Source of the DNA: Athalassotoga saccharophila
GTDB lineage: Bacteria; Thermotogota; Thermotogae; Mesoaciditogales; Mesoaciditogaceae
Direction: 5' to 3'
DNA length: 64,000 nucleotides
NCBI RefSeq assembly: GCF_009936215.1
Contig: NZ_AP019551.1
Span: forward strand, 1,388,708 to 1,452,707
In this document: positions 2,721-37,214 of the stretch, one piece after another
How positions within the stretch are numbered: position 1 is the first letter of the stretch
Layout: the number at the start of each line of letters is the position of its first letter
Made by a program: the position numbers and the translations under genes
The notes under the pieces: generated by a model
Told to the model about the DNA's origin: nothing
The model's database searches: none
What the model saw: only the letters and a program-made list of their open reading frames with translations

Positions 2721-2721
2721 A

Positions 2722-4399: not shown

Positions 4400-4401
4400 G
4401 T

Positions 4402-4426
4402 GGAGGTGAAGGGGCCTTAGGCCTTC
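4402..4426 (+). promoter_or_regulatory. ribosome site and hairpin ahead of secD
   Basis: GGAGGTGA (4402-4409) lies 17 bases before the secD GTG, too far for normal initiation. Between them GAAG (4408-4411) pairs with CTTC (4423-4426) and GCC (4414-4416) with GGC (4420-4422) around a TTA loop. Folding would bring the ribosome site closer to the start or would mask it. No experiment supports either reading. Confidence 0.4.
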
Positions 4427-14226: not shown

Positions 14227-14230
14227 AGAT

Positions 14231-15661
14231 ATGAAATCCGTTATAGGACTCGAAATACACGCCCAGTTACTCACAGAGACAAAGGCTTTTTGTGCATGCA
14301 AAATAGACGTTAACGCAAAACCGAACACAAATATATGTCCGGTATGTACCGGTCAACCCGGCGCGCTGCCCGTGTTGAATGAAAAGGTAGTCGAATTTGC
14401 CATAAAGAGTGGACTTGCACTTAACTGTGAAATTCATCAGAGGTCTTCTTTTGACAGAAAGAATTATTTCTATCCCGATCTTCCAAAGGGTTATCAAATA
14501 ACCCAGTACTTTCATCCGATAGCAACGGAAGGGTATATAAATCTTGACAGTGGTAAAAAAGTAAGAATAAGAAGGATCCACATAGAAGAAGATGCCGGAA
14601 AGATGATCCATTCAACTGAGAATATAACCGAGTCCAAAGAAAGTTTGATAGACTTCAACAGATGTGGTGTTCCCCTTATAGAAATAGTCACAGAACCAGA
14701 CATGGAAGAACCTCTCGAGGCAAAAGAATTCATGGAAAAGTTAAGAGATATTCTCAGAACGATAGATGTGTGCAGTGGAAATATGGAAGAAGGAGCCCTA
14801 CGCTGCGATGCGAATGTTTCAGTCATCGATGACAATGGAAGATCGAGTTCAAGAGTAGAGGTAAAAAACATAAATTCATTCAGGTATGTCCAGTACGCTT
14901 TAGAATACGAAATAGATCGCATCTCAAAATCTCTGAAAGAAGGGAAAGACGTAAAGCATGAAACACGTGGGTGGGACTTTGTGACAAGGACAACGGTTTC
15001 TTTGAGATCGAAAGAGGAAGAAAATGATTACCGGTACTTTCCAGAGCCGGATCTTCCCATTCTCGAGGTCTCGAAAGACCTCATAGAACAAGTAAAAAAG
15101 ACTCTCCCCGAATTGCCGGATCAGAAGGCCGAAAGATATGTAAAAACATTTGGAATATCCGACTACAACGCTAAAATAATATCGAAAGATCGTGATCTCG
15201 CTAATTATTTTGAAAGTACAATATCAGCCGGTGTAGATCCTAAAGATGGCGCAAACTGGATCGTCAATGATTTACTTAGCCTTTTTAATGCAGACTCGGC
15301 CGAATTCGACCCGGGAAAAGTTTCCGTCGATGCTTTGAAGATCTTGATAGATTACACGAATTCTTCGAAAATATCGAGATTGTCTGCCAAAGAGGTAATG
15401 TCAGAAGTTTACAAAAGCGGCAGAAACCCAGCCGATATAATAAAGGAAAGAAATCTTATCCAGGTCTCCGATGAAGAATCCCTCATTCCAATCATAAAAA
15501 AAGTGATAGAGGGAAATCCTGCAGTTGTCGATCAATACAGAAAAGGTAAGACTTCAGTAGTTGGATTTTTTGTCGGTAACGTTATGAAAGAAACAAAGGG
15601 AAAGGCAGATCCGAAAGCCGTCGGAGAACTTGTTAAGAAAGTGCTGGACGGTAAAGTATGA
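14231..15661 (+). CDS. gatB: aspartyl/glutamyl-tRNA amidotransferase subunit B
   Basis: Subunit that binds the mischarged tRNA, phosphorylates its acyl group and receives ammonia from GatA. It opens with GLEIHAQLLTETKAFCACK and contains CPVCTGQPGALPVLN, RKNYFYPDLPKGYQITQ, GVPLIEIVTEPDM and RYFPEPDLP, all GatB hallmarks, plus a C-terminal YqeY-like tail domain. Length 476 is normal. It starts five bases after gatA with GGTGAAG as ribosome site, and its TGA overlaps the folP ATG. The presence of gatAB suggests indirect charging of Gln and/or Asn tRNAs. Confidence 0.97.
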   Translation: MKSVIGLEIHAQLLTETKAFCACKIDVNAKPNTNICPVCTGQPGALPVLNEKVVEFAIKSGLALNCEIHQRSSFDRKNYFYPDLPKGYQITQYFHPIATEGYINLDSGKKVRIRRIHIEEDAGKMIHSTENITESKESLIDFNRCGVPLIEIVTEPDMEEPLEAKEFMEKLRDILRTIDVCSGNMEEGALRCDANVSVIDDNGRSSSRVEVKNINSFRYVQYALEYEIDRISKSLKEGKDVKHETRGWDFVTRTTVSLRSKEEENDYRYFPEPDLPILEVSKDLIEQVKKTLPELPDQKAERYVKTFGISDYNAKIISKDRDLANYFESTISAGVDPKDGANWIVNDLLSLFNADSAEFDPGKVSVDALKILIDYTNSSKISRLSAKEVMSEVYKSGRNPADIIKERNLIQVSDEESLIPIIKKVIEGNPAVVDQYRKGKTSVVGFFVGNVMKETKGKADPKAVGELVKKVLDGKV

Positions 15662-22843: not shown

Positions 22844-22971
22844 ATTTACCGGAACGGGACTTAAAATAGAGTTTGTGATATTGACTAAAATACGCTAAAC
22901 ATAAAAATGCAGACAAGTTAGATGAACTTTATTAAACAGCGTATTGAACAAATGTTAGAATAGAAATATTT

Positions 22972-22995
22972 GCCACCGGTAAGGTGGCTTTTATT
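22972..22995 (+). terminator. intrinsic terminator after the metallophosphoesterase
   Basis: GCCACC (22972-22977), loop GGTAA, GGTGGC (22983-22988), then TTTTATTTT. A good 6-bp G+C stem with a T-run, 128 bases beyond the stop codon. Confidence 0.85.
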
Positions 22996-23124
22996 TTGTG
23001 CTGATTTTCTAACAAATTTATTTCTGGTAAAATTTGTCTGGCGCTGATGATTTTGCTTTCAGACGCAACTATGGTATTTCCGTAATCATGACTTAGAATT
23101 AACGACGAAATTGAGTTATTTACC

Positions 23125-23153
23125 TTGACAGAGGAATGGTGTTATTTTAATAT
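23125..23153 (+). promoter_or_regulatory. near-consensus promoter ahead of a broken sigma-factor gene
   Basis: TTGACA (23125-23130), 17-base spacer, TAATAT (23148-23153). This is the best -35/-10 pair in the window, and it faces the sigma-factor remnant that begins 30 bases downstream. The rest of 22996-23124 shows nothing recognisable. Confidence 0.65.
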
Positions 23154-23181
23154 CTAAGCAGAATCCTCTGGCGATAAATGA

Positions 23182-23411
23182 TCAAAAGAACAACTTATCA
23201 TTTCGAATCTCAGACTTGTCGTAAGCATTGCCCGCCATTACACAGGCTTGGGTCTCCCACTCGATGATCTCATCCAGGAGGGAAACATAGGTCTCATGAA
23301 GGCCGTAGATAAGTTTGACTGGAAGAGTGTCAACAGAGCGATAAGGATACCAATTCACACATTTGAGAAGATCCTCAAGATAAATCGGATCTTAATCCGA
23401 GAGATGCGATG
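23182..23411 (+). pseudogene. sigma-70 factor remnant, region 2 part
   Basis: One frame reads [18 protein letters not shown] and then [20 protein letters not shown] and DKFDWK, which is region 2.1-2.2 of a primary-type sigma factor. After DWK the expected RGxKFSTYAxWWIRQ block (regions 2.3-2.4) is missing and the frame goes to SVNRAI, then [14 protein letters not shown] with a second short gap. After KIN it shifts into a frame reading DLNPRDAMI, the start of region 4, so region 3 is lost. There is an in-frame stop directly before the fragment and no start codon. The gene then breaks at an insertion sequence and resumes at 25263. Confidence 0.82.
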
Positions 23412-23418
23412 ATAGTAA
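23412..23418. repeat. target-site duplication, left copy (ATAGTAA)
   Basis: ATAGTAA directly precedes the left end (CCCAC) of the insertion sequence and recurs at 25263-25269 directly after its right end (GTGGG). Confidence 0.8.
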
Positions 23419-25262
23419 CCCACTTTCCGCAGATAAAAAACAGTTTTTTGGATTTATTTGAAACTCATGTTTTAAAATTGAAAGTGGGAAATGATTAGAG
23501 TCAGTAATAGCCAAAGAAGCATTTGCTGTAACCTTGACGCACATCACAAAGATTATACCACTATTTACCGTTTCGGATAGAGTCCATTGATTTATGCCTT
23601 TCTGCTGCTATGATCTATTTGAAAAAGACAGCGGAGGTAGAAAAATGGAAATCACTACAAAGCAACTTGATCACCATGGACTTGTGGCTGGGACATTTGA
23701 TAAATTTGAAATGGGAGAGGTCATTGAAAAGAGAATACCGAAAGTCCGGAACTTCAATCTTTCAACGTCTGCGATAATAAAAGCGATGATCATACTCGGG
23801 CTTGGTTTTGTTGACAGGAGATTGTACTTTGCAGGGAGTTATTTTGAGAACTGGGATGTTGAGAAACTTTTAGGCGAAGGAACTAAACCGGAAGATCTTA
23901 ACGATGACGCTCTCGGCAGAGTGCTTGACAAGATTTATGATTACGGTCCAACGGAATTATTTCAAGAGATAGCGGCGCACGCTTTGAACAAACTTGAAAT
24001 GGATGTTCACCTCGTTCACACCGATACCACAAGCGTGAGTGTAAGCGGCAATTACGAGATGGAAGACGGGACGAATGGTTTTAAGATCACCTTCGGTCAT
24101 TCGAAAGATCACAGACAGGATTTGAAACAATTCGTGATAGGGATGGTTGTAAATCAGCATGGAATGCCGATGTTTGCCAAAACATACAACGGGAACGAAT
24201 CGGATAAAGAGTCGATCAAAGAAATGGTCAAAGCAATCAGGAAGAACATTGACAAAGACAAGAAAGTCTATCATGTGGCAGACAGTGCTTTCTACACTGC
24301 GGAAAACATTAGCGAACTCAGAACAACATACTGGATAAGCCATGTGCCGTCTACGATAAAAGAGGCTGAAGAAATGCTAAATAAAGAAGTTGAATTTCGT
24401 CCGACCAAAATTGAAGGATATGAAGTGTATTCCGAAATAAGCAATTACGGCGGGATAAAACAAAAATGGATAATGGTGAATTCGAAATATCTTAAAGAAC
24501 AGGAACTGAAAACATTTGACAGGCATTTGAAAAAAAGCAAGACAGAAGCGGAAAAGTCATTGAAAAAGACTGTGACGAAAGAACGGTATTTTTGTTCTGA
24601 AGACGGAATAAACAAGTCCAGACAATGGATGGAAGCTCATCCTCTTTTCAAATACGACAAGTTTGAGATAAAGAGCGTAAGAGTCAGAACTGACGGGAAA
24701 AGAGGAAGGCCTAAAGATGGGGATCCGACGATAGAAATGTATGAAATAGATGCTGAGATAGGTCTGAATGAAGAAGCGGTTGAAAAGGCCAAAGCAAAAC
24801 TCGGAAGATTCATACTTTCAACGAACGACATTGAACTTGAAGATGAAAAAGTGCTCGAATATTACAAAAACCAGACAACGGTCGAAAGAGGATTCAGGTT
24901 TTTGAAAGACAAAAGTTTCGGAGTAAGCGATGTGTATCTGAAAAAGCCCGGACGGATTCAGGCACTTGTGATGATAATGGTATTGACGTTATTGGTGTAC
25001 TCGCTTTCGGAATGGGAAATAAGGCGCACATTGAAAGAGACAGGGCAAACATTTCCGAATCAGTTGAAAAAGCCGACAAACAGGCCGACATTCAGGTGGA
25101 TATGTCAGAACTTCATGAACATAACCGTTGTAAATGTGGTTACAGATGGGCAAACAACCACACAGATAGCGAATTTAAAAGATTTGCAGATCAAAGTGAT
25201 AAGACTTTTGGGAGTTGAATATGAAAAATATTATTTCTGATCAAAGATGTGCGAAATGTGGG
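23419..25262 (+). mobile_element. IS1634-type insertion sequence inside the sigma-factor remnant
   Basis: 1,844-bp element. Ends are imperfect inverted repeats: left CCCACTTTCCGCAGAT, right (reverse complement) CCCACATTTCGCACAT. It is flanked by the 7-bp direct repeat ATAGTAA. It encodes one intact transposase of the IS1634 (IS4-superfamily) type. The left 70 bases (23419-23488) are themselves bounded by CCCACTTTC and GAAAGTGGG. Removing the element and one ATAGTAA restores the sigma region 4 reading frame ([11 protein letters not shown]). Confidence 0.85.
23645..25240 (+). CDS. IS1634-family transposase
   Basis: DDE transposase of the IS4 superfamily. The N-terminus [20 protein letters not shown] and the stretches [32 protein letters not shown] and [20 protein letters not shown] are typical of the IS1634/DUF4277 group. 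I start at the ATG after GCGGAGG; the frame extends 17 codons further up without a better site. About 531 residues, no interruption, so the element may still be active. The gene ends 22 bases from the right end of the element. Confidence 0.88.
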
Positions 25263-25421
25263 ATAGTAAGGATGAGGTATGGACTTTATGGGAAGAGATG
25301 GACTCTTGCCGAGATAGGTCAAGAATTGGGAATTACGAGAGAAAGGGTCAGACAGATAGAAAAAAGGGCAATTGAGAAATTAAGGCGGCTTGAATCTGGA
25401 GAGGATTTATGGAAGTCATAG
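25263..25421 (+). pseudogene. sigma-70 factor remnant, region 4
   Basis: Continues the broken sigma gene beyond the insertion: [19 protein letters not shown], then [20 protein letters not shown] and RRLESG, ending LWKS. This is an intact region 4 with the helix-turn-helix that reads the -35 box. The stop TAG overlaps the plsY start (ATG at 25409). TSD copy ATAGTAA occupies 25263-25269. Together with 23182-23411 it represents a decayed primary-type sigma factor, so the working rpoD must lie elsewhere. Confidence 0.82.
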
Positions 25422-25547
25422 GGATTTTTCTGGGCTATCTGTTAGGTGCGATTCTACCTGGCTATTACCGAAGATTTTAAGAGGTGTGGACATTCGTACT
25501 CTGGGTGATGGAAATCCGGGGACAACGAATGTCAAAAGAGAATCCGG
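25409..25547 (+). pseudogene. plsY: plsY remnant, 5' part (frameshifted, cut by an IS256-type element)
   Basis: ATG 25409 opens [19 protein letters not shown], the first span of glycerol-3-phosphate acyltransferase PlsY; then the frame is lost by what looks like one missing T, and the next frame reads LPKILRGVDIRTLGDGNPG then TTNVKRESG, the PlsY catalytic loop (GxGNPGxTN). The reading continues across the IS256-type element: after GAATCCGG the right flank (26882 on) reads GLFPAVITASYDTTKGLISM, again PlsY-like. The gene is therefore dead twice over. Confidence 0.8.
25540..25547. repeat. target-site duplication, left copy (GAATCCGG)
   Basis: GAATCCGG adjoins the left tip (GGGTCTG) of the IS256-type element and is repeated at 26882-26889 next to the right tip. 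Confidence 0.85.
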
Positions 25548-26881
25548 GGGTCTGTCAATAGTTTTGTGTAAACTCCATTTTTGTCAGTATTCATAAGTAT
25601 TTAGACACTCTTTCCCCAAAATGTACCTTTAATTGCTGTAAAATTTGATTCCAGTCTTTTACCTTCATCACCCATTTTTTCTTTATCTCAACTACTGCCA
25701 AATAAAGCAATTTGAATATAGCCGTATCGTTAGGTAAAACATCTCTGTTCTTTGTTTTCCTCCTCAATTGCATGTTAAAACTTTCTATCGGATTTGTAGT
25801 ATAGATGAGTTTCCTTATCTCAGGAGTAAATTGATACATCGTGGATATCCTGTCAAAACTCTTTTCCCATACATTCACAGCTAAAGGATATTTCTCAGAC
25901 CACTTTTCTTTCAAAGCGTTTAATCCCTTTCGTGCCGATTCTTCTGTCGGCGCTTGATATATACTCTTCGTATCCTTGGAGAACTCTTTTAAATCCTTGT
26001 ACGAAACGTATTTCATTCCATTCCTTATGACATGAACGACGCATCCCTGCAATTCAGTTTCAGGATAAATCGCTTCAACCGCTTCTTTCATCCCACTAAG
26101 TCCATCTGTTGTCATTATGAGAATGTCTTTAACACCACGATTTCGTAAATCACTTAAAACCTTGGCCCAATACTTGGATGTTTCTGTTTCTGCTATCCAC
26201 ATACCTAAAACATCTTTTTGTCCACCTAAATCTATTCCTACCGCAAAATAAACCGTCTTGTTTATTACCTGTTCATTTTCCCGCACATTATACCTTATCC
26301 CGTCAAGATAAACTATGGCGTATACTTCTTCAAGCCGCCTGTTTCTCCATTCTTCCATGAGCGGTATTATCTTATCCGTTATCCTCGATAAGGTTTCATT
26401 TGAAAGTTCCGCTCCGTAAATATCCTCTATCTGATTCCCAATTTCGGAGAATGTCATCCCATTAGCATACATGGATATTATCCTGTCTTCTATACCAGAA
26501 ATATCTCTTTGGCGTTTCTTAACAACCTGAGGTTCAAAATCGGAATTCCTGTCTCGTGGAACTTCTATTTCAGTTTCACCGTATTTCGACATAACCGTTT
26601 TCTTCGATTTGCCATTTCTTGAATTATCCGTCATCTTAGACTTGTAATCGTATTTGGTATATCCAAGTTGGTCCTCTAATTCAGCCTCAAGCATTTCTTC
26701 AATAACCGATGAAAACATCCTTTTTAGAGATTCTTCGATACCTGCAATATCTTTGATATCATTGTCTTTGATAAACTTTCTGATCTCATCTTTGGACATT
26801 AGTCTTTTCTTTTCCATGATTCTCCTCCTTTGAGTTTATTTTACTCAAAATGGAGGTTTACACAAATAATCTTATACTCCC
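25548..26881 (-). mobile_element. IS256-type insertion sequence inserted in plsY
   Basis: 1,334-bp element flanked by the 8-bp duplication GAATCCGG. The tips are GGGTCTGTCAATAGTTTT and, on the other strand, GGGAGTATAAGATTATTT, each followed at the same distance by GTGTAAAC and TCCATTTT, the pattern of IS256 ends. Size, duplication length and the Mutator-type transposase agree. Confidence 0.9.
25591..26817 (-). CDS. IS256-family (Mutator) transposase
   Basis: 408-residue DDE transposase. The first Asp lies in AIVYLDGIRYNVRENEQ, the second in MTTDGLSGMKEAVEAIYPE followed by QGCVVHVIRNGMKYVS, and the Glu in IYTTNPIESFNMQLRRKTK, the well-known C-terminal block of the family. The N-terminal LEAELEDQLGYTKYDYKS block is also typical. 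GGAGGAG precedes the ATG. The frame is intact, so the element may be active. Confidence 0.95.
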   Translation of the reverse strand: MEKKRLMSKDEIRKFIKDNDIKDIAGIEESLKRMFSSVIEEMLEAELEDQLGYTKYDYKSKMTDNSRNGKSKKTVMSKYGETEIEVPRDRNSDFEPQVVKKRQRDISGIEDRIISMYANGMTFSEIGNQIEDIYGAELSNETLSRITDKIIPLMEEWRNRRLEEVYAIVYLDGIRYNVRENEQVINKTVYFAVGIDLGGQKDVLGMWIAETETSKYWAKVLSDLRNRGVKDILIMTTDGLSGMKEAVEAIYPETELQGCVVHVIRNGMKYVSYKDLKEFSKDTKSIYQAPTEESARKGLNALKEKWSEKYPLAVNVWEKSFDRISTMYQFTPEIRKLIYTTNPIESFNMQLRRKTKNRDVLPNDTAIFKLLYLAVVEIKKKWVMKVKDWNQILQQLKVHFGERVSKYL

Positions 26882-26945
26882 GAATCCGGGCTTTTTCCGG
26901 CAGTCATTACAGCCTCATATGACACGACAAAGGGACTTATATCAA
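26882..26945 (+). pseudogene. plsY: plsY remnant, continuation after the IS256-type element
   Basis: Begins with the right GAATCCGG copy and reads ESGLFPAVITASYDTTKG in the plsY frame, including the Asp-x-x-Lys-Gly that follows the catalytic loop. Similarity fades near 26945, where the antisense group II intron sequence begins. The exact boundary is uncertain by about 20 bases. Confidence 0.65.
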
Positions 26946-27303
26946 TGGCTATCAGATTTCTGAGTATCTTGCTTATTGCCAGTTTTACTATCTTATCTTC
27001 GCATGCTGGTATCCCGAGAGGTCTTAATTCAGATTTACCGGGCTTGGGAATGTACACCCGTCTGACTGGCTGCGGAATGTAGGTCATATCCTTCAGTGAT
27101 TCGTGTAGCCTTTTAATGTTTTCTTGAAGGTTTTCTTCGTATTCCGCTTTGGTAACCTCGTCAACACCGGCCGCTTTATTTGCCTTCAGTTCGTTGTGGC
27201 ATTCAAGCAACATTTCCTCATTTATGAGATGCGCTAAACTTGTGAATCTCTCCTTCGGCCTTTCTTTCGCAATCTGTGCTATCCTTGCAAGTTTCGTTTC
27301 CAA
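26945..27303 (-). pseudogene. group II intron reverse transcriptase, N-terminal fragment
   Basis: Reads ERFTSLAHLINEEML, NKAAGVDEVTKAEYEENL, YIPQPVRRVYIPKPGKSELR and PLGIPACEDKIVKLAI, which are the RT0 to RT2 blocks of LtrA-like intron proteins. After ILRNLIAID the open frame runs on for about 25 codons, but these are antisense to the plsY remnant and are not RT. The catalytic YADD block and the maturase domain are lost. Confidence 0.85.
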
Positions 27304-27708
27304 TCGTTTCCCACCTCTGTGTGCAGCAATTGTTTCCCCTACAAAGTCCTCTTAATGTAGTTGCCTTCTCTCCACAGCCATTAAGCCGTTTCTTAGATAC
27401 TACGCAGCTATCCGACTTCCTGCCCGTCTTTTGCCTTCCTCACTTTTTAGACTTGTAAGGCATACTCTATTCAGAGAACAGACAGGATCTCCTGAGTTTC
27501 TGTTAACTCTCGATTATGATGTGCCGAGTTCTCAGATCCCGGGGCGCCATTGAAAACTCACCATTTCGCTTTCAACGATGTTGCCTTGTGAGTAGCTTAA
27601 AGTGTTCAGTTACCTGAACACCTCCAAGGCTAACTACGAAACTGCTGGTTGGGCATTATTTCGATGGGACTTCCACCCATTAGAGTTAACACAATTTCTC
27701 AGCCGCAC
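26945..27708 (-). mobile_element. truncated group II intron
   Basis: Read on the minus strand, the sequence starts at 27708 with GTGCGGCTGAG, then AACTCTAATGGGTGGAAGTC, the usual opening of a bacterial group II intron, followed by about 400 bases of structured RNA-type sequence (27304-27708) and the first third of a reverse-transcriptase gene. The rest of the RT, domains V-VI and the 3' end are missing; the sequence breaks off against the plsY remnant near 26945. It cannot splice or move by itself. Confidence 0.75.
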
Positions 27709-27731
27709 TACACAAATAATCTTATACTCCC
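27709..27731 (-). repeat. 23-bp tip of a second IS256-type element, 5' exon of the intron
   Basis: Identical over 23 bases to the right tip of the neighbouring IS256-type element (26859-26881) and in the same orientation, ending GGGAGTATAAG. The identity stops exactly where the intron's GTGCG begins, so the intron appears to have inserted inside the terminal repeat of another copy whose body is gone. Confidence 0.75.
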
Positions 27732-27738
27732 AATAGTT

Positions 27739-27794
27739 TCATTATTACCTTCACAAAATCACCGTAAAAAACCCACATTTCCAAACGTAAATGA
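27739..27794 (+). repeat. 56-bp direct repeat, left copy, beside the methyltransferase gene
   Basis: Identical over 56 bases to 35156-35211. It begins TCATTATTACCTTCACAA and ends CCCACATTTCCAAACGTAAA plus TGA. The two copies bracket the restriction-modification-like pair. Confidence 0.9.
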
Positions 27795-27837
27795 GACAAT
27801 TTCTGTGGGCGGCGTGGATCAATTTTATTTTATACAG
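27795..27837 (-). repeat. IS21-like end fragment at the 3' edge of the methyltransferase gene
   Basis: Read from 27837 on the minus strand: TGTATAAAATAAAATTGATC and then a CCACGCCGCCCACA stretch. A TGTATAAA tip followed by spaced AAATTGATCC repeats is the pattern of IS21-family ends. A similar end lies at 35979-36030 and an inverted relative near 35236-35268. No istA or istB gene remains. Confidence 0.5.
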
Positions 27838-30800
27838 CTCTATTTGCTTTCTCCAATCTATTTTTGACAAGTTCTGCAACTGCCCAGTAAACTTCTTTGC
27901 GCTCTTCTTCGGTTAAGCCGAGAGCATCAAAAATAATATTATCAAGGGCTTGTCGATCTGGCATAGGATTAGGTTCCTGATCACGAATAGGTTTTGATGG
28001 GTCAAATCCAAGCTCAGCAAAGATGGTATTTATAAAAGATTTATTAGAAAAATCAATTTTCCCCTTGATTTCAAAATTATCTAATTTTGGTATAAGAATT
28101 TGATTTACCTCATAAACTTTTACATCTGCAGCTCCACCACCGTATCCTCTTGCACTTAATTCAATCCAAAATAGACAATAAGTGCTATTAAGTATAAAGA
28201 CTGTATTTTCATTACAATATATATCGTAAAAACGGGCATCAGCAAAAGCTGCTTTATTAAATACCACAAAGAATCTCTCACCATAAGTCATTGTCCATAA
28301 TGCTGTACTTATTTCTGATTCTCTCAAATCCCACCATGGTTTTCTACTTTTGCAAGTCGGTTTATTTTGATACCCTTGTTTTTCTCCCCACTTTATATAT
28401 TCAAGAGCTTTTGTTCCTTTCAACTGTGATTTTGAATCATGGCACATAAAAGCAAGATAATTTAAATCTTCAATTTTTACAACTATTGTCTTTAATTCTT
28501 TTGGGCTTTTTATAACAGGTTTTAAAAATCTTGCTTCGATTTCTCCTTTCCACCCAACATCATTTTTAACTTCTATCAGAACATTGGGGTTATTGCCTGC
28601 TATTTCTGCAACCTCTTTAACTGTTTTACCCACTGGTTTCAAATAAAAGAATTCATTTGCTCCTGTTTTTATTCCAAATTTTACTTCTGCGATATCTCCC
28701 AACCTAACTAACTTTCCCTTTCCTTTTTCTAAGATTTTGAAGTAAATTTCAGGTGCTCTTAGATATTTTCCACCCCATTTGTTGCCAATATATGGAAGAT
28801 CTTCTAAGTTTTGACCAAAGTTTGATTCATCGTTTCCATCGAATTCTGTCCCTTCTAACAATAAATCTTTTTTCGTCTTTGGGTATAGTCTGAAGTCTTC
28901 ATCATTAAAGTTAGGTTCATTAATTGCTTCTATTTTTTTGATTACATATGGGTTGGATACATCTTCAAAGGGCTTTTTGAATGCGACGAACTTTAACGTA
29001 TAATCTTTTAAAGGATTCTCTGGTTTCCTTATCAAAACAATTACTGTGTTTATATCCGCTTCCTTGAAAGAACGTTTTTTTAAGTTATCAATTATCAGTA
29101 AAGGCTCCATATTTTTGAGTAAAAATTCTTGCAACTTTGTTCCATAATTAACGTCAAGCCATGAATTTGAACTTATAAAGCAAAAAACGCCATCTGATTT
29201 AAGTAATGATAAACCCTTATAATAGAAGTAAACATAAAGGTCGCTTGTTCTATCAATCTTTGCAAGATTATCCCATTCATTTTTGGCAGACTGAATTAAT
29301 TTGTTTTTGTATTCTTTCTTTAGTTCGCTCCATTCTTTACCATTATAATTTTTTTGATTTTCAAGTGGAGGAGCGATAAGTTCTTGTCGAACATATGGTG
29401 GATTACCTATTACAATATCAAATCCACCTTTTTCTGCAAATATTTCAATAAAGTCAACTTCCCAGAGAAAATAATCTTTCTCTGCTTTTTTACCTATTTC
29501 TGAATAAATATTTTTGTATTTAGTAATATTGTTATTATATAATGATATCTTTTCTTCTATTTCTTTTATCTTATTTTCTTTTTTTTCTTTTATCTGGTTC
29601 TCTATTTGGGGATTTTCTTTTTCAAAAAGGCTCCTGGATTTTTTTAGTGATTCAATATTACTGCTAAGAGATTGTATTTCTTTCTCGGTTTGTTCAATCT
29701 TAAACTGAACTATTTCTTTAAAAATCTCTTGTTCAAACATTTCAATATCTCTTTCTTCTTTGAGATCATCGTCTCTTGATCCGACGAAGAAACGTTCTTT
29801 TTTTTCTACAAGTTTTTCTATTTTTACCCTTATTGAAGGAGGAAGTGAAGGCATTTTATTCTCATTTTTCAGAGTAATATAAACTCCGGCTATCTCTTCA
29901 ATTAATGAGTCTCCCTGACGAATTTTGAAAGAAAGATTCGGAAGTAGAGGTTTTGTGTAATCCATATATTGTTCGCCTGTTTCAACAATTAAAGATAGCC
30001 ATAATCTTAATTCTGCAACCATTACAGCCCAATATTTAACATCCACACCATAAATATTTTCACAAATGATTTTTTCTTTTAGGGCAAATAAGTTTTCTTT
30101 ACCTTCAAGATCTCGATTCAGTTTAGAGTGTAATTCAACAAGAATATTCAGCATTGCAACAAGAAAAGAACCGGAACCAACGGCAGGATCAACCACTTTT
30201 AATCTATCTAACTTATCACTTATATTCTCTAGTTCTTCTTCTGATAACTTATTATCGTCCGTGTTAAACACAAAATCTGTGATTTTTTCTTTTTGTATTT
30301 TTGTCTCTTTAGTAAGGTACTCAACAAGAGATAATCGTGTCATTAAGTCAATTTCAATTCTCGGTGTGTAAAAAATGCCTGATTCTTCTCTTTCATCTTC
30401 AAGAATAAGAGATTCATAAACCTTGCCAAGCATTTCAGGATCAACAGCAACTTCAACATCAAGAGGAGTTGATTCATCAATAGTAAAATTGTAAATTTCA
30501 AGAAATCCTTTGCGATTATCATTTGGATCTGATTCAAAGAGCCATTCAAAAACCGAATCTGGAATATTAACATCTTTATCAAGTTTTGTTTTTGAAAACA
30601 AACCGCCATCTAAAAATGGCATCAATTTTAGAGATTCTTTGATATCGTCAGGTATGCCTTCTGAAATAAGATGCTGCTTTTTATTAAATGCACCAAAGAA
30701 AAGACTCGATAGCCATCTAGAATAAAATACATCCTTTGACTTTGTAGATTTCTTCCAATCTAAATATTTTAACCAGAAATTTTTTAAATATTTTCTGTCT

Positions 30801-31534
30801 TGGAGCCATCCTTTTTTTTGAAGAAAATAAACAAAAAGAATTCTCGATAATAAAAGTTGAGCGAACGAACGTTTATCTAATGAAATATCATTAGGTAATG
30901 ATTTTATAATAATTTCATTAAGCGCGTATTTGTAAGCGTCAAAAAATTCTTCTGTTACAGGTTCAACATTAAAGGCATTTTCTAAATCTTCAAGTTTTGG
31001 CATTTGATCATTTTCAAGTATCGGAATAAATCTCGATTTTGCAGTATGGATATTTTGGTTTTCTCCAACAAGAAATGACCATCGTCTTGCAGATGTGGCT
31101 TTTTCTTTAATTTTAACTTCACCATCAAATTCTTCAAAAAAATAATTCATTTTGACAAGAGAAAACCTCCAGTCCTTATTTTCTGGCGATTCAAAGGCAA
31201 CAAGAGCCGCATCTTTAATTTCTATTTTTTCATTTTCTTTCAAATACCACTCAATAAAATTTCTTTGCGCAGTTCTCGCCCTTTCAAGCGAGGTACTTTT
31301 CTTCAGCTTAACGATTAGTAAATCAATTTTCTTACCACCATAAGAGTATTTGCCAATTATCTTTAAGGAATAAATGTGTGGCTGGAAACGTTCTGGAATT
31401 GAATCTTTCAGATATAACTGACTTTCTATTGGTTGAAAATTTTTTAAAAGGTCTTTCAGGAACAATGTGAATTTATTTTCATCAAAAGCTTGTTCGAAAA
31501 CACTTAGAAGTCTTTCAGCATCTGTTCTATTCAT
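27830..31534 (-). CDS. Eco57I-like N6-adenine DNA methyltransferase of a two-gene RM-like module
   Basis: 1,234-residue protein. SAM motif I is DPAVGSGSFLVAML (about residue 448) and the N6-adenine motif IV is GNPPYV (about 711); Eco57I-type linking segments lie between, with a long coiled region (about 600-690). The first 200 residues hold KIDLLIVKLK, reminiscent of a PD-(D/E)xK core but lacking a clear second acidic residue, so nuclease activity is doubtful. The C-terminal 350 residues should recognise the DNA target. The start overlaps the helicase stop (ATGA). The final codons GCT GTA TAA coincide with an IS21-like tip, so the last residues may have been replaced. Visibly more A+T-rich than flanking core genes. 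Confidence 0.85.
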   Translation of the reverse strand: MNRTDAERLLSVFEQAFDENKFTLFLKDLLKNFQPIESQLYLKDSIPERFQPHIYSLKIIGKYSYGGKKIDLLIVKLKKSTSLERARTAQRNFIEWYLKENEKIEIKDAALVAFESPENKDWRFSLVKMNYFFEEFDGEVKIKEKATSARRWSFLVGENQNIHTAKSRFIPILENDQMPKLEDLENAFNVEPVTEEFFDAYKYALNEIIIKSLPNDISLDKRSFAQLLLSRILFVYFLQKKGWLQDRKYLKNFWLKYLDWKKSTKSKDVFYSRWLSSLFFGAFNKKQHLISEGIPDDIKESLKLMPFLDGGLFSKTKLDKDVNIPDSVFEWLFESDPNDNRKGFLEIYNFTIDESTPLDVEVAVDPEMLGKVYESLILEDEREESGIFYTPRIEIDLMTRLSLVEYLTKETKIQKEKITDFVFNTDDNKLSEEELENISDKLDRLKVVDPAVGSGSFLVAMLNILVELHSKLNRDLEGKENLFALKEKIICENIYGVDVKYWAVMVAELRLWLSLIVETGEQYMDYTKPLLPNLSFKIRQGDSLIEEIAGVYITLKNENKMPSLPPSIRVKIEKLVEKKERFFVGSRDDDLKEERDIEMFEQEIFKEIVQFKIEQTEKEIQSLSSNIESLKKSRSLFEKENPQIENQIKEKKENKIKEIEEKISLYNNNITKYKNIYSEIGKKAEKDYFLWEVDFIEIFAEKGGFDIVIGNPPYVRQELIAPPLENQKNYNGKEWSELKKEYKNKLIQSAKNEWDNLAKIDRTSDLYVYFYYKGLSLLKSDGVFCFISSNSWLDVNYGTKLQEFLLKNMEPLLIIDNLKKRSFKEADINTVIVLIRKPENPLKDYTLKFVAFKKPFEDVSNPYVIKKIEAINEPNFNDEDFRLYPKTKKDLLLEGTEFDGNDESNFGQNLEDLPYIGNKWGGKYLRAPEIYFKILEKGKGKLVRLGDIAEVKFGIKTGANEFFYLKPVGKTVKEVAEIAGNNPNVLIEVKNDVGWKGEIEARFLKPVIKSPKELKTIVVKIEDLNYLAFMCHDSKSQLKGTKALEYIKWGEKQGYQNKPTCKSRKPWWDLRESEISTALWTMTYGERFFVVFNKAAFADARFYDIYCNENTVFILNSTYCLFWIELSARGYGGGAADVKVYEVNQILIPKLDNFEIKGKIDFSNKSFINTIFAELGFDPSKPIRDQEPNPMPDRQALDNIIFDALGLTEEERKEVYWAVAELVKNRLEKANRAV

Positions 31535-34500
31535 TCTTTGCCTCCACCATTAATCAAATATAGCGATAATATGGTCTCTCTTTTTCCTTCTGGTATAGAG
31601 GACGTCTCAACATAATGACTTTCGAGAAACACCTTTGAAATTACTCTTTGCAACGTATTTATGACTTTTAACGGATTCTGCTTTTCACTTCCAAGTTTGT
31701 TTAACTCTGCAGTTGCTTTTTTCATTGTTTGCTTGGGTAATGATCCTTCCTCGATCCGACTTATAAGTTTACTAATATATTCTTCTTGTTCTTCTGTTAA
31801 TCGCTTAGTATCTTGCTGGATTGCTTTCAAAATTTTTAAAATATTAGTTGCACTATCATTTCTAATATGTCTAGAATTTTCAATAAAATTTTCCTGTGTT
31901 GAAACAAGGAAAGCGTTTTTATTCCTTTCAAGAAATTCGTAATAATTATGAAGGGGTAATTTTTCTTTTTTTGTATTTAGAGAGCTTTCAATAATTTCTG
32001 CAACCCTCAAAAAATCGATCTCAATCGTACTGTTTCTATCCGAGAGGAAAAATTTAATTAATCTCCCTTTTCTAAAGAAAGTAATTAAAAAATCACCTAA
32101 AGTAATATTGCTTAAAGATGAAGGAGACATTTTTGCACAACGGGCTTTTCTGGGAAGTTGCTTTATTTTTTCAAATAAATGTGGATCGTTTTCTCGAATA
32201 TTTTCAATAACCTTCAAATATTTCAATTCGCTCTCTTCTGTTTCGCCTTCTGTAACTATTTCCTTTGAAATTAGTTTATCAAATAATTCATGTGAAGATA
32301 CAGGTTCTCCTTCTGTTAATATAAAGGCATCACCACCAAGTAATGTCAAAAATTCATTTATTTTCGAACTCGCAATTCGTGTAAGCTCTATTTCAGAATC
32401 TGATTGTTTTGTCGGAAAAAAATTGAACGTGTATATTTTATCAAAAGATGTATCTATACGGTTTATTCTTCCTATTCTTTGCATTAATCTTGTAGGATTC
32501 CATGGTATATCATAGTTTATTATTACATTTGATCGGTGAAGATTGACTCCCTCAGAAAGTACCTCAGTTGAGACCAATATTCTATAATCATCTTTCTTAT
32601 TCTTTGCTCTTGCATCAAAATTTTCTATAACTTGATCTCTAACTTCTTCTTTAGAATCTCCATGAAATAAGAGCGCAATTTTACCTAAATGGTTATTTAT
32701 ATTTTGAGTAAGGTACTCTGCTGTCTCCTTTGACTCTGTAAAGATTATTATTTTATTATCCTTAAAAATATTATCTTTATTCAGATTATCCAATAAAGTC
32801 TCAATTTTAGGATCTCGGTTTATAGATTGCCATATAGATTTTATATTTTCCAAAATTTTGAGATCATTCTCAAGATCATCTTTTAACTGGGATTTGAAAT
32901 CCTTACTAGGATATCTTTCTGCTTTACCTTCATCAATAAGTTTTTGAACTGCTTCATCGTTTCCCAGTTCTAAAAGTTCAAAGATCTTATTTATATAACC
33001 CTTACTTACATAAACATTTCCTTTGTCATATTCTTCAATGAATTTCTTATAAGAATTTATAAATCTGTCAATGCTATTTCTAAATGCATAAAAACTACTT
33101 TCAAGGCGTTTTACAAGGAGTACTTTCATAAAACTACCCATATTTCTTTGTGATTGTTCTTCTATATGAGAAATATTTTTCATCAAATAAAGTAATGGCG
33201 TATAACGAGCATATTTGAATTTCTTAGTTATTAGCCGAACCGTTTCCATAAAGATTTTGTCTTCTTCGTCATTTAATTGGTAATAAAATGGTTTTGGAGC
33301 TTTTACTTCTGGGAATTTAATTTTATTTTTCTTCAGATCCTCAGAAAAATATTTCTCTATTTCTGCTCTTGTCCTTCTGACCATTAAATATTTTAGAATT
33401 TTATCACGGATTTCTTTTGAATTACTTTTTTCTATTTCAATCAAGTCATTATAATCCTTCTGTCGATCAACTAAGTTAAGTTTTGATTCAAGTCTGCTAA
33501 AAAATGTTTCAAGATTTTGAACCCCAGGAATAGTGCTTTTCCTTGCGTTTTGAAAAAGTTTAATCAGTGCAAGAATATCTTTGGGTGAGTTGTTATAAGG
33601 GGTAGCAGAAACTAAAATTACTCTTTTACCACGGCAAATTTCAGAAATTTTTTCATAACTAATAGTTATTTCGTTTCTAAAGCGATGCGCTTCATCTATA
33701 ATAATATTTTTAAAATCTGTTCGTTCCACTATCTTTTTTGCCTCATTAAGATTACCAATAGAAACATACTCAGCAGGAACATGAAAATCAGAAAAAACAT
33801 TTGGCCAAGAACCAGGGTTACTTTTATTAAGAATGGCGGGTGGAGCTATAACAAGAGTTCTGCCGTCAATCTGATTTGCAAGCATTGCTGTTATATAAGT
33901 TTTCCCAAGTCCCACTACATCAGAAATAAAAACTCCGCCATACTCTTCTAATATCCTTTTAGCATTCAAAACAGCTTGTTCTTGATACTTGAATCTTTTA
34001 AAATTTTGAGGTAAGTATTCCATAAAAACATCATCATTTCTTGTCAATTCTTCTTTAAAATATTCATATAAGAACTTAAGATAAAGTTCATAAGGAGTTA
34101 TATCTTGATTTAGCCAAGTTTTGGAATTTATTGTCTGTACGAATTTTTCACTAACATCAACAGATTCTTTCCATAATTCTTCAAATTTTTGTTTTGCAAA
34201 TTCATAATCAGCATAGTTCTTCAATTCGACATTAAATTCGATATTATCGGCAAGACCAGATTGAGTAAAATTACTTGAACCCGTGATGACTCTTCCTTTA
34301 TCTCTGTCTCCTTCCCTAAAAGTCATAATATATAATTTGGCATGAATATCATGAAATGGGTAAGCTTTTACTTGCAACTTACCATTTTTTATCCATTCAA
34401 TAAATTTCTGCACTCCTTCTTCAACAATTTGATTGTCTTCAGATTCAGACATTTCATTTTCTACGAGATTTTCGACTATTTGCCTGGTTTCTAGATAAGA

Positions 34501-34839
34501 AAATTGAAATGAATCTTGTGACTTGTCTTCTGCAAATCTTATTAAATTATAAGTTTCTTTGTTTGTATTAATTCCAATAAGAATTCTTATATTTTTTGTT
34601 TGCTCCAGTGATTTATATATTGAATGAAATCCACTTATATAAAAATAAGCGACCAGACAATCAAAGAATTCGCAATCCCTTATTAGTTGATTAAACCTAT
34701 CTTTGAGTGTCTTACCTGATTCGTTCGTTATAAATGATAAGTCTAAATTTGATTTCTTATTTTCCTGAACTATCGATGATTCATAAAAATTTTTGTTAAA
34801 ACTTGTTGAATTTTCCTTATAAAATTTGTTCTTATCCAT
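31531..34839 (-). CDS. PLD-nuclease / SF2 helicase fusion of a two-gene RM-like module
   Basis: About 1,102 residues. An N-terminal phospholipase-D-like nuclease domain has HDIHAKLYIM (HxK, about 160) and GSSNFTQSGLADNIEFNVE. An SNF2-like ATPase follows: DVVGLGKTYIT (motif I, about 308), IIIDEAHRFRN (II, about 380), VSATPYNN (III), EGVNLHRSNVIINYD (V) and QRIGRINRID (VI, about 784). The C-terminal 250 residues are unassigned. It presumably translocates on DNA and cuts, guided by the methyltransferase partner translated from the overlapping gene. I use the ATG with GGAG nine bases upstream; TTG 34848 abuts the site too closely. Confidence 0.85.
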   Translation of the reverse strand: MDKNKFYKENSTSFNKNFYESSIVQENKKSNLDLSFITNESGKTLKDRFNQLIRDCEFFDCLVAYFYISGFHSIYKSLEQTKNIRILIGINTNKETYNLIRFAEDKSQDSFQFSYLETRQIVENLVENEMSESEDNQIVEEGVQKFIEWIKNGKLQVKAYPFHDIHAKLYIMTFREGDRDKGRVITGSSNFTQSGLADNIEFNVELKNYADYEFAKQKFEELWKESVDVSEKFVQTINSKTWLNQDITPYELYLKFLYEYFKEELTRNDDVFMEYLPQNFKRFKYQEQAVLNAKRILEEYGGVFISDVVGLGKTYITAMLANQIDGRTLVIAPPAILNKSNPGSWPNVFSDFHVPAEYVSIGNLNEAKKIVERTDFKNIIIDEAHRFRNEITISYEKISEICRGKRVILVSATPYNNSPKDILALIKLFQNARKSTIPGVQNLETFFSRLESKLNLVDRQKDYNDLIEIEKSNSKEIRDKILKYLMVRRTRAEIEKYFSEDLKKNKIKFPEVKAPKPFYYQLNDEEDKIFMETVRLITKKFKYARYTPLLYLMKNISHIEEQSQRNMGSFMKVLLVKRLESSFYAFRNSIDRFINSYKKFIEEYDKGNVYVSKGYINKIFELLELGNDEAVQKLIDEGKAERYPSKDFKSQLKDDLENDLKILENIKSIWQSINRDPKIETLLDNLNKDNIFKDNKIIIFTESKETAEYLTQNINNHLGKIALLFHGDSKEEVRDQVIENFDARAKNKKDDYRILVSTEVLSEGVNLHRSNVIINYDIPWNPTRLMQRIGRINRIDTSFDKIYTFNFFPTKQSDSEIELTRIASSKINEFLTLLGGDAFILTEGEPVSSHELFDKLISKEIVTEGETEESELKYLKVIENIRENDPHLFEKIKQLPRKARCAKMSPSSLSNITLGDFLITFFRKGRLIKFFLSDRNSTIEIDFLRVAEIIESSLNTKKEKLPLHNYYEFLERNKNAFLVSTQENFIENSRHIRNDSATNILKILKAIQQDTKRLTEEQEEYISKLISRIEEGSLPKQTMKKATAELNKLGSEKQNPLKVINTLQRVISKVFLESHYVETSSIPEGKRETILSLYLINGGGKE

Positions 34840-34862
34840 TCTTCTCAACTCCAGTGAATCCC

Positions 34863-34868
34863 ATTATA
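34863..34868 (-). promoter_or_regulatory. -10 box of the PLD-helicase operon
   Basis: TATAAT on the minus strand about 24 bases before the ATG, without a TGn extension and without a good -35. This suggests the module carries its own promoter. Confidence 0.45.
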
Positions 34869-35155
34869 TACTGAACCAGTTTTAAATTCGGAATCTTTGG
34901 CCTAAAAAAGTGCTTCAAAATTGAGGGATGATCTTAGATACGATTTGGTATTCTCTGTGGCTCACAAAGAAACATTACCCGCTTATAATCTGAAAAGCAG
35001 TATCTATGAAAATCTTCAATTCCAAGTTTATCAACTTGTCTTTTACGTCTTCTTCAAAGAATTCTTTTATCTTCGATTTGAATTTCTCTTTCTTTTCATA
35101 ATAGACCTGAAATAACACATTTTTCGAATATTTTCACAGTCTTTCTATTAGATCC
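34869..35155. other. gap upstream of the PLD-helicase gene
   Basis: No recognisable gene. On the minus strand 35115-34978 reads FKSKIKEFFEEDVKDKLINL then ELKIFIDTAFQIISG and a stop, a helical tail without a start that may be the remnant of a lost gene. I cannot identify it. Confidence 0.35.
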
Positions 35156-35211
35156 TCATTATTACCTTCACAAAATCACCGTAAAAAACCCACATTTCCA
35201 AACGTAAATGA
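35156..35211 (+). repeat. 56-bp direct repeat, right copy
   Basis: Identical to 27739-27794. It runs directly into a 21-bp segment (35214-35234) that is identical to 23469-23489 within the IS1634-type element, so IS-derived sequence adjoins it. CCCACATTTCC (35189-35199) and GAAAGTGGG (35225-35233) form IS1634-like inverted ends only 45 bases apart. Confidence 0.9.
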
Positions 35212-35235
35212 CAGTTTTAAAATTGAAAGTGGGAT

Positions 35236-35268
35236 AAATGATCCGCGCCGCCCACAAAAATTGATCCT
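35236..35268 (+). repeat. inverted relative of the IS21-like end
   Basis: A GATCC-CGCCGCCCACA-AAATTG arrangement that matches, on the opposite strand and with a few differences, 27795-27825. It gives the module an outer inverted repeat in addition to the direct repeats. Confidence 0.5.
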
Positions 35269-35312
35269 CCGATTTAAATTGAATCCATTTCTTTCCTTCA
35301 ACATTTACTCTC

Positions 35313-35591
35313 TCATTTTGCAAGTTTCGCAACTTTCGATAGCCCAATTCTTGTGGACGATCGAATTAACGGGGTATATTTTACACCCATTTTTTTACTC
35401 AGTTCTTTTATCTGTTTCAATTCATCTTCGTCCATTCTTATAGATACAGTTGTCTTAGGACGCTTTCTTACAAGCACTTTGACTTCTTCTAAGTCGTCAA
35501 AAACATCCTCCAATGAATGTGTATCCCAGAATATTCTTTCTTCTTCTAAATTTTTAAATTTTGGTATTTCATCTTTATAAGCCTTTTTCAC
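35313..35591 (-). CDS. CopG/BrnA-like antitoxin
   Basis: 92-residue DNA-binding antitoxin candidate. The N-terminal part (KNLEEERIFWDTHSLEDVF) and the central TTVSIRMDEDELKQIKELSK ribbon-helix-helix are typical of CopG/BrnA antitoxins paired with BrnT. The C-terminus, YTPLIRSSTRIGLSKVAKL, departs from the usual YTTLIR-x-W-x-x-E ending and may have been altered. It overlaps the upstream toxin by four bases (ATGA), with the toxin first as in brnTA operons. Confidence 0.75.
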   Translation of the reverse strand: MKKAYKDEIPKFKNLEEERIFWDTHSLEDVFDDLEEVKVLVRKRPKTTVSIRMDEDELKQIKELSKKMGVKYTPLIRSSTRIGLSKVAKLAK

Positions 35592-35878
35592 CTTGCACCT
35601 CTCTTTTTGTAAAGTCTGATATCTTTGTCTGTCATATCACGTGCAGTTATTATTTTGACTTGATTTTTAACAGGTTTTGTAATGACGACAAACAATAATC
35701 TATTTGTTAAAGTTCTACAAAGCACGTACATTCTGTCTTTACCATCTCTGTTTGATACCATAAACAAAGGTTTATCGTCGAAAATGTCTTCTTCAACTTC
35801 TTCTGGCATGACATCATGCTTTGCAATGTGTTCTATTGAGCCTTTTGTCCATAAATATATTCTACCAAGACATATCAC
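35588..35878 (-). CDS. BrnT-like toxin
   Basis: Small RelE-fold ribonuclease toxin candidate. SIEHIAKHDVMPEEVEEDIF, then GKDRMYVLCRTLTNRLLFVV and KIITARDMTDKDIRLYKKRG match BrnT. The start is uncertain: I use GTG 35878, about 10 residues before the conserved part. The open frame runs on to 35986, but that portion (FRDLSQISLSF and so on) is unlike BrnT and borders an IS21-like end, suggesting that the original 5' end was altered by an insertion. About 97 residues from the GTG. Confidence 0.68.
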   Translation of the reverse strand: MICLGRIYLWTKGSIEHIAKHDVMPEEVEEDIFDDKPLFMVSNRDGKDRMYVLCRTLTNRLLFVVITKPVKNQVKIITARDMTDKDIRLYKKRGAR

Positions 35879-35978
35879 CAGTTCTATTGGAACACGAAAA
35901 GTAATAAAAGTCGTTAAGTGGAAAATGCTCGAATTTAACACAAAGCTTAAGCTAATTTGGGAAAGATCTCGAAAATAA

Positions 35979-36030
35979 TGGATCAATTTTGATGAGCGCG
36001 ATGGATCAATTTCTGATTTACTTTATACAG
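35979..36030 (-). repeat. IS21-like end with two internal repeats
   Basis: From 36029 on the minus strand: TGTATAAAGTAAATCAG, then two AAATTGATCCAT-type repeats separated by CGCGCTCATC. Multiple short terminal repeats behind a TGTA tip are typical of IS21-family ends. The adjoining 36031-36109 shows nothing recognisable. Confidence 0.5.
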
Positions 36031-36109
36031 TTAACTCGACTTGCATAATTTGATATAAGATTTTATTCAAAACGGTAAAATTGCACAAATGAATAAAGAA
36101 CTTTCTTTC

Positions 36110-36352
36110 TCATAAGTTCTTGTAAGCTGAACCTCTTGGTAAGACTCGAACAACATAAAGCACTTTTTTTTCGAGCTTAAAAATAACTCTGTAATTGCTT
36201 ACTCTCAAACGATAAAATTCAACACCTTTTAGTTTTTTAACATCCCCAACGCTTTCATTATCAAGGCGTTCGAGAACATCCATAATGTGTTTCTGCAATT
36301 TAGAAGACAATTTTGAAAGATCCTTTACGGCTTGTCTATCAAATTCTATCAT
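36110..36352 (-). CDS. RelE/ParE-family toxin
   Basis: 80-residue toxin. MIEFDRQAVKDLSKLSSKLQ, LKGVEFYRLRVSNYRVIFKL and VLPRGSAYKN match the RelE family, whose members cut mRNA on the ribosome. ATG at 36355 or 36352; both overlap the antitoxin stop. It is the second gene of a two-gene unit, antitoxin first. Confidence 0.85.
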   Translation of the reverse strand: MIEFDRQAVKDLSKLSSKLQKHIMDVLERLDNESVGDVKKLKGVEFYRLRVSNYRVIFKLEKKVLYVVRVLPRGSAYKNL

Positions 36353-36636
36353 CAAATGTTCAACTCTTTTTTGGCCTCTTCAAGGGAAATACTTTCAACT
36401 TTTCTTAGAGCTTTACGGCTTTCATATTCTTCAATGACTTTTATCTCATCCAATTCGGGTTCTACTTCGGGAACGCTTTCGAGGAAATCTAAAAGGTTTT
36501 TAAAGTGAGAAACCTTTTTCAAGTAGTCTTCCACGGCTGCCCGTATGATAACGCTTTTTGAAACTCTGAGCCTGTGAGCTTGTGTATTTAACTCTTCAAG
36601 GAGTTCATTATCTATCTTCACGCTTATAGTTTTCAT
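36352..36636 (-). CDS. ribbon-helix-helix antitoxin
   Basis: 94 residues. The N-terminal TISVKIDNELLEELNTQ and SKSVIIRAAVEDYLKK form a ribbon-helix-helix DNA-binding domain, and the acidic tail (EVEPELDEIKVIEEYESRKA) should wrap the RelE-type toxin. GGAGGTGG lies before the ATG, and an extended -10 with a flanking inverted repeat lies just upstream, so autorepression is likely. Confidence 0.82.
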   Translation of the reverse strand: MKTISVKIDNELLEELNTQAHRLRVSKSVIIRAAVEDYLKKVSHFKNLLDFLESVPEVEPELDEIKVIEEYESRKALRKVESISLEEAKKELNI

Positions 36637-36661
36637 AATCCACCTCCTTTTTGGGTGTTAC

Positions 36662-36704
36662 TATGTATTATTTTATTATACCATAGAATAAAAAACAGCC
36701 AAAA
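36662..36704 (-). promoter_or_regulatory. promoter and operator-like repeat of the toxin-antitoxin unit
   Basis: On the minus strand TGGTATAAT (36684-36676) is a perfect extended -10, with TTGGCT (36703-36698) as a fair -35. CTATG (36662-36666) and CATAG (36683-36687) form an inverted repeat that spans the -10, a natural site for the RHH antitoxin. Confidence 0.6.
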
Positions 36705-36709
36705 TTGGG

Positions 36710-37188
36710 TGTGTATAAAGTAATGGGGTATAAAGATTATGTAAAATGTGGATTTAGAAGAGTCTTAATTTTGTCTTCCACATAAGAATTATTCAGAGTT
36801 GCTAATGTACAATCAATATATCCCAAATGAGTGTCTTGATCATCAATGTGTTTCTTCTGTGCTTTAACCTCGTGAATCTTTAGCACTTTCTCAGATAAAA
36901 TCATCATGTGCCTTATCATGTTAAATAACCCTCTTTTTGACCAACTCCTACCCTTAAGCCTTTGCTTTACTTTTTTGACGTTGCTTTCGCATGAACCAAA
37001 ATATCCCTTGTATTCAAAAGATTTGACCAGTTTTTCCTCTTCTTGATCCTTAATACCTTGTATCCCCTTTCCAAATAAGCGGAACATAACTCCTCATCCA
37101 ATTCTTTCATGACCGTGTCAAGAAATTCTTTTATTAGAAGCCTTTTTCTCCCTCCTTTCATCTTCATACCCCTATATTATATACACAC
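36710..37188 (-). mobile_element. internally deleted ISLre2-like element
   Basis: Both ends remain: GTGTGTATAAAGTAATGGGG plus TATAAAGAT at 36710-36738 matches the reverse complement of 37160-37188 (GTGTGTATATAATATAGGGG plus TATGAAGAT) with few differences. The interior is the two outer pieces of one transposase gene. No target duplication was found next to these ends. At 479 bp it is a non-autonomous derivative. Confidence 0.72.
36737..37167 (-). pseudogene. ISLre2-family transposase remnant
   Basis: The 5' piece reads LLIKEFLDTVMKELDEELCS and YLERGYKVLRIKKRKN, the N-terminus of ISLre2/UPF0236 transposases; after a frame change the second piece reads GYFGSCESNVKKVKQRLKGR and SWSKRGLFNMIRHMMI, the C-terminal block. 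The whole catalytic middle is missing, so no active protein is made. Confidence 0.75.
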
Positions 37189-37214
37189 GAGTGTGCATAT
37201 AATCTTTTTGTTTA

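Follow-up and report, generated by a model that had tools for sequence, protein, structure and literature searches.

A PLD-SNF2 Helicase and an Eco57I-Type Methyltransferase of Athalassotoga saccharophila as a Predicted Two-Subunit Restriction-Modification System

Two adjacent genes of Athalassotoga saccharophila, one for a PLD nuclease-SNF2 helicase and the other for an Eco57I-type N6-adenine methyltransferase, are predicted to encode a two-subunit, ATP-dependent restriction-modification system, and we put the probability of this reading at about 0.75. The genes are found in the stretch of 64,000 nucleotides analyzed here (contig NZ_AP019551.1, positions 1,388,708 to 1,452,707), which is referred to as the window and whose numbering is used below. 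As best read, the pair has a Type III-like layout, in which a SauUSI-like motor-nuclease is combined with a Type IIG-like methyltransferase that is probably dead as a nuclease. In the open-access literature searched, no paper was found that treats the pair as a separate system. Automated annotation names one gene a "helicase-related protein" and the other a putative Type IIG enzyme, and this split has hidden a widespread two-gene defence candidate.

Gene Organization and Genomic Context

An earlier, sequence-only reading of this DNA had described two large overlapping genes, and both open reading frames were indeed intact on the minus strand. The helicase gene (31531..34839), first of the pair, encodes a candidate restriction subunit of 1,102 aa, and the methyltransferase gene (27830..31534) a candidate modification and specificity subunit of 1,234 aa. 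The start codon of the helicase was ATG at 34839, with GGAG in front of it, a TTG at 34848 being also possible. The two genes share an ATGA overlap of 4 nt (31531..31534, minus strand), and a GGAGG sequence was located at 31541-31545, within the end of the helicase gene and 6 nt before the ATG of the methyltransferase. Given this internal GGAGG and the overlap, the two proteins are probably translated together.

The pair lies in an acquired, low-GC, strain-specific island (22846..37191), at the limits of which homology to the sister genomes breaks off (22845 and 37192). The G+C content of the pair was about 0.30, versus 0.37-0.41 in its surroundings. Beside it, the segment 23594-27303 carries a DDE transposase with DUF4277, a Mutator-family transposase and a truncated reverse transcriptase fragment, while two toxin-antitoxin pairs, BrnT/CopG-like and ParE/RHH, are situated at 35313-36636, between the pair and rbfA. 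In agreement with the sequence-only reading, no hsdS, pglZ, brxC or DISARM gene was found within the island.

Occurrence of the Pair in Other Genomes

Co-occurrence of the two proteins across genomes, which the earlier reading had suggested looking for, was addressed by scanning GTDB species genomes with a profile, which gave at least 487 contig stretches encoding relatives of the helicase. The best 80 of these stretches, tallied from their record titles, span more than 20 phyla, among them Patescibacteria, Chloroflexota, Nitrospirota, Bacteroidota, Planctomycetota, Verrucomicrobiota, Aquificota and methanogenic archaea. Of the 52 fetched loci that extend 3.5 kb or more beyond the downstream end of the helicase gene, all but L053 have a same-strand methyltransferase in that stretch (51/52), and the gap between both genes was of 50 bp or less in 30/64. 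Within the Thermotogota, full-length helicase relatives, some with identities of about 30% or lower, were present in about a dozen of 103 genomes. An Eco57I methyltransferase adjoined the helicase in nearly all of the Thermotogota loci with its place on the contig, and in every complete locus of the family that was inspected; L050, as a system of another kind, and two contigs that end too early are left out of this count. The pairing thus recurs far beyond chance, and the pair is a real, mobile and widespread unit rather than a one-off. Helicase homologues with 35-70% identity occur in many phyla, and identities of 50-70% across phyla suggest that the pair has moved horizontally. No full-length homologue was found in phage records.

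L050 (genome G027) was rejected as a member of the family, as its helicase is divergent and, together with DUF4391, lies next to a Type III system. The same arrangement, a divergent helicase relative and DUF4391 next to Type III mod and res genes, was seen on a Lactococcus plasmid (L146).

The Helicase Subunit

The fusion of a PLD nuclease (HxK) to an SNF2-like helicase, proposed from the motifs, was borne out by Pfam matches to PLDc_2 (1.2e-9), SNF2-rel_dom (9.3e-11) and Helicase_C (9.1e-24). All three parts of the protein are encoded on the minus strand. The PLD nuclease domain comprises residues about 34-225 (34165..34740; PLDc_2 match 63-223), with the HxK catalytic motif H166-A167-K168 at 34336..34344. 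It is followed by the SNF2/SF2 motor, residues about 280-830 (32350..34002), with GLGKT (310-314), DEAH (382-385), SAT and QRIGR (787-791), and by a C-terminal region, residues about 870-1102 (31534..32232), which is folded in the structural model and is a candidate for contact with the methyltransferase. Beyond the PLD domain and the motor, the Pfam scan of the helicase gave nothing, and hence no recognised modified-base reader.

Residues H166, K168, N190, K313, D382, E383, H385, Q787, R788 and R791 were invariant in 83/83 helicases, and the PLD residue E201 was present in 82/83. The spacing of the PLD residues (H-x-K, N and then E 11 residues further on) is that of the PLD nuclease BfiI. The model of the helicase (mean pLDDT 80.3) matched RapA and SauUSI, the latter with an E value of 3.8e-14 over about 1,040 columns.

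The Methyltransferase Subunit

The second gene had been described as an N6-adenine methyltransferase of 1,234 residues, and this assignment held: the protein matched the Pfam families Eco57I (4.4e-31) and MmeI_Mtase (1.3e-13). Its core, residues 440-840 (29015..30217, minus strand), carries DPAVGSGSF (449-457) and NPPY (711-714). D449, G453 and S454 were invariant in 55 methyltransferases, and NPPY was found in 98% of them. Taking both proteins together (83 helicases and 55 methyltransferases), the catalytic residues were conserved in at least 98% of the sequences, far above chance, and since they are essentially invariant both enzymes should be active. The structural model of the methyltransferase, of moderate quality (mean pLDDT 69.8), matched CamA, BrxX, MmeI, BpuSI and DrdV. 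The core also includes a long coiled-coil insert at residues about 590-680 (29495-29767), shared only with L046 among the relatives aligned first.

An N-terminal domain (residues about 1-200) is an addition to what the sequence-only reading had described. It was delimited at residues about 1-195 (30950..31534, minus strand) and has a PD-(D/E)XK-like topology. The model of residues 1-128, with pLDDT values mostly of 80-89, shows a helix, three strands, a helix and a strand, which is the element order found in PD-(D/E)XK nucleases. Among the 55 homologues no conserved acidic-x-Lys motif or catalytic triad was detected in this domain: position 76 was acidic in 13%, and position 78 was Lys in 21/54. 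The domain is likely to be a nuclease-like fold that lacks an active site, a reading based on the predicted order of elements and on residue conservation because the fold search left the N-terminal domain unisolated. It is also the likely contact to the helicase, and we regard it as a candidate docking domain.

Exchange of Modules among Related Pairs

The identity of the methyltransferase of the window (P0001, used as reference) to its relatives was followed along the sequence by means of a sliding comparison. Against L037 and L052, it was 58-70% at residues 81-200 and mostly 20-50% thereafter, and the partner helicases of these two loci are 69-70% identical to that of the window. Against L046, on the other hand, it was 10-43% at residues 1-200 and then 60-88% over most of the rest, with a partner helicase only 33% identical. 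The recombination junction was placed at residue about 185-210 (30900..30980, minus strand), L037/L052-like upstream and L046-like downstream. Judged by these identities, P0001 is a natural chimera joined near residue 200; the switch there would mean that its N-terminal domain matches its own helicase while the remainder comes from another lineage.

The same tendency was observed over 53 loci, where the identity of the N-terminal domain followed that of the helicase with a Spearman coefficient of 0.86 (p 0.003 by permutation, the lowest value that the test could give). The coefficient was 0.71 for the first half of the methyltransferase core, and there was no correlation for the second half (-0.06) or for the recognition domain (-0.04). 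In the closer clade, the helicase C-terminal region was the best correlate of the N-terminal domain (0.77). The methyltransferase gene has its 5' end next to the helicase gene, and part of this correlation could therefore be due to linkage. In this regard, L047 has the reversed gene order, so that the N-terminal end is far from the helicase, and its best N-terminal matches were still the loci with the nearest helicases, which was not the case for its best recognition-domain matches. Being the one usable locus of reversed order, L047 offers supportive but thin evidence against pure linkage.

The target recognition domain, TaqI_C-like in the relatives, corresponds to residues about 870-1190 (27965..28927, minus strand), and the comparisons indicate that it is exchanged freely among relatives. 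In plasmids of Thermus oshimai and Allomeiothermus (L142 and L143), the part matching residues 877-1231 of P0001 is a separate gene beside that of the methyltransferase, both preceding the helicase; these split genes resemble the M and S of Type I systems. Three contigs from the viral collection (L177, L181 and L186) carry an extra, inverted specificity gene beside the methyltransferase, at 13612-15422, 13714-15492 and 13652-15350 of the respective contigs. It had a TaqI_C match in L177 and L186 and a profile match in L181. In all three, this gene and the methyltransferase share inverted repeats, with lengths of 291 bp (97.9%), about 100 bp (97-100%) and 306 bp (88%), and a serine resolvase (PF00239) adjoins the invertible domain in each. 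Inversion switches of this type are known from phase-variable restriction systems. The inverted spare copies, together with the repeats and the resolvase, argue that the C-terminal recognition domain sets specificity.

Comparison with Known Systems and Alternative Explanations

As the sequence-only reading had anticipated, none of the profiles assigns the pair as a whole to a described subtype, the matches to Type IIG, DISARM, BREX and Type-2 BR/Hma being partial. Its layout is like that of Type III (Mod/Res) systems, with two subunits, a methyltransferase containing a recognition domain and an SF2 helicase-nuclease. Nevertheless, the methyltransferase is Eco57I (PF07669)/MmeI-like instead of N6_N4_Mtase, with a TaqI_C-like domain in relatives, and SNF2 and PLD take the place of the ResIII-type motor and PD-(D/E)XK nuclease of Res. 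By its layout the pair would work like Type III, but by its parts it is no standard Type III.

A PLD-SNF2 helicase next to an N6-adenine methyltransferase also occurs in the DUF499-centred Type-2 BR, where the HKD/PLD-Swi2/Snf2 helicase and the methyltransferase have been predicted to act as a restriction-modification-like defence (PMC12839542). That system, however, needs DUF499 and DUF3780, both of which are absent from the whole genome of the window's host (91.6% complete). In addition, its helicase and methyltransferase are of other families. At a Type-2 BR locus of the Thermotogota (L147, genome G067), the helicase reached 177 bits on the profile of the window family, members of which mostly score 900-1,360, and the methyltransferase is a DUF1156 protein with no match to that of the window. 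Conversely, the PADLOC PLD_Helicase profile gave 75 bits for the window helicase versus 812 for the Type-2 BR protein of G067. Membership of Type-2 BR was rejected on these grounds, and so was that of Hma, as DUF499 is missing and the match to HmaA is only partial (89 bits). Type I was likewise discarded, the island having no hsdS and the only one of the genome lying about 1.1 Mb away.

Among the alternative explanations, a BREX- or DISARM-like block, in which DNA is marked and phage replication is stopped without cutting while the PLD domain serves as sensor or clamp, was considered unlikely. The motor matches DrmD and BrxH-like proteins and the methyltransferase BrxX-like ones, and the SNF2 helicase and adenine methyltransferase recall class 1 DISARM (DrmD, DrmMI), with partial profile matches. 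Nevertheless, the NCBIfam DrmD score was 144 against a cut-off of 610, and none of DrmA, DrmB and DrmC is present in the island. Membership of BREX was rejected, as no BrxC-like neighbour was found in the island and PglZ gave only a sub-cut-off match far away in the genome. Neither a DUF499 partner nor a PglZ above the cut-off supports such a block, and the catalytic H, K, N and E of the PLD domain are retained in 82-83 of 83 sequences.

It is quite unlikely that we are dealing with an ordinary Type IIG enzyme, a methyltransferase that marks and cuts alone, beside an unrelated helicase. The best PADLOC model was REase_MTase_IIG (5.7e-110), which covers the N-terminal region, and the methyltransferase and recognition-domain architecture, as well as the PD-(D/E)XK-like element order of the N-terminal model, are those of Type IIG/IIL enzymes such as BpuSI and MmeI. 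The window family, however, differs from them in having no conserved nuclease active site (D...(D/E)xK), the feature on which Type IIG membership was rejected, since the 55 homologues share no acidic-x-Lys triad. It also differs in its nearly constant helicase neighbour (51/52), which the N-terminal domain tracks.

An MmeI-like methyltransferase without a working nuclease beside a helicase gene is also found in DnmA-YeeB-YeeC of Bacillus subtilis (PMC9973331, PMC7261158), where the nuclease candidate is the product of a third gene, YeeC, while the PLD domain of the window pair is fused to the helicase. It must be considered that no restriction was seen in that similarly built system (PMC9973331), which counts against our preferred explanation. 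The Type IV enzyme SauUSI has a PLD nuclease and an SF2 motor in one chain, but it reads methylated cytosine through an SRA domain of its own and has no methyltransferase partner (PMC7913695); as Pfam revealed no reader domain in the window helicase, membership of this type was rejected.

The least probable reading was a Type IV-like, modification-dependent cutter whose signal is made or regulated by the methyltransferase, or else a chiefly epigenetic regulator with a dispensable restriction arm. In its favour, SauUSI, which has the nearest fold among characterised PLD-SF2 enzymes, cuts methylated DNA (PMC7913695) and DnmA is a gene regulator (PMC7261158), but the helicase has no modified-base reader recognised by Pfam and the recognition domain resides in the methyltransferase, where it is switched by inversion in relatives.

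Proposed Mechanism and Implications

In the two-subunit restriction-modification system that we favour, the C-terminal domain of the methyltransferase would recognise a DNA site, the adenine of which would be methylated to mark host DNA, while its N-terminal domain, nuclease-like and presumably without an active site, would hold the helicase subunit. An unmethylated site would engage the SNF2 motor, which would pump double-stranded DNA, and the PLD domain would then cut it, working in dimeric form like those of SauUSI and BfiI. In SauUSI, two subunits are joined through their PLD domains and the enzyme moves along DNA by ATP hydrolysis (PMC7913695), and a PLD-mediated dimer with ATP-driven movement is proposed for the window helicase by analogy with it. 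We infer that the two proteins form a complex and that adenine methylation, translocation, cutting and phage restriction are its activities. The division of labour already predicted from sequence, in which the methyltransferase recognises and marks and the helicase moves and cuts, fits every comparative test made here: the pairing and the catalytic residues are conserved, the recognition domains are exchangeable and the helicase fold matches SauUSI.

There is, in our estimation, about an even chance that these pairs form a separate class of ATP-dependent restriction-modification systems, widespread in more than 20 bacterial and archaeal phyla, in which the PLD-SNF2 cutter is recruited by a docking domain with a dead nuclease-like fold. 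If this is true, new specificities would come simply by swapping or inverting the parts behind the docking domain. The chimeric P0001 suggests a testable rule for the gain of specificity, namely that the first 200 residues are kept and the rest is changed. Moreover, the invertible recognition domains of the mobile relatives suggest target switching, as in phase-variable Type I systems.

Defence Neighbourhood of Related Pairs

In various loci, cargo genes were found between the helicase and the methyltransferase, including AlbA_2/HATPase, Fic, Bro-N, KilA-N, AbiEii, MNT/HEPN and DUF1016. Such inter-gene cargo is of the kind present in Type I operons. The enrichment in defence islands that the sequence-only reading had proposed to look for was also assessed. 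At a cut-off of 1e-15, 100 neighbours of the pair matched 146 PADLOC families versus 12 for 100 control genes, a contrast to be taken as indicative, given that the controls came from arbitrary regions of Thermotogota, and so from other taxa, and that families and not genes were counted. Gabija, Septu, PARIS and Argonaute were among the defence families matched. In L046, genes of TIR and SIR2-like type (1865-6115) directly follow the methyltransferase of the related pair, and on a Nostoc plasmid (L144) a relative of the pair adjoins a viperin-family gene and an EVE-domain gene.
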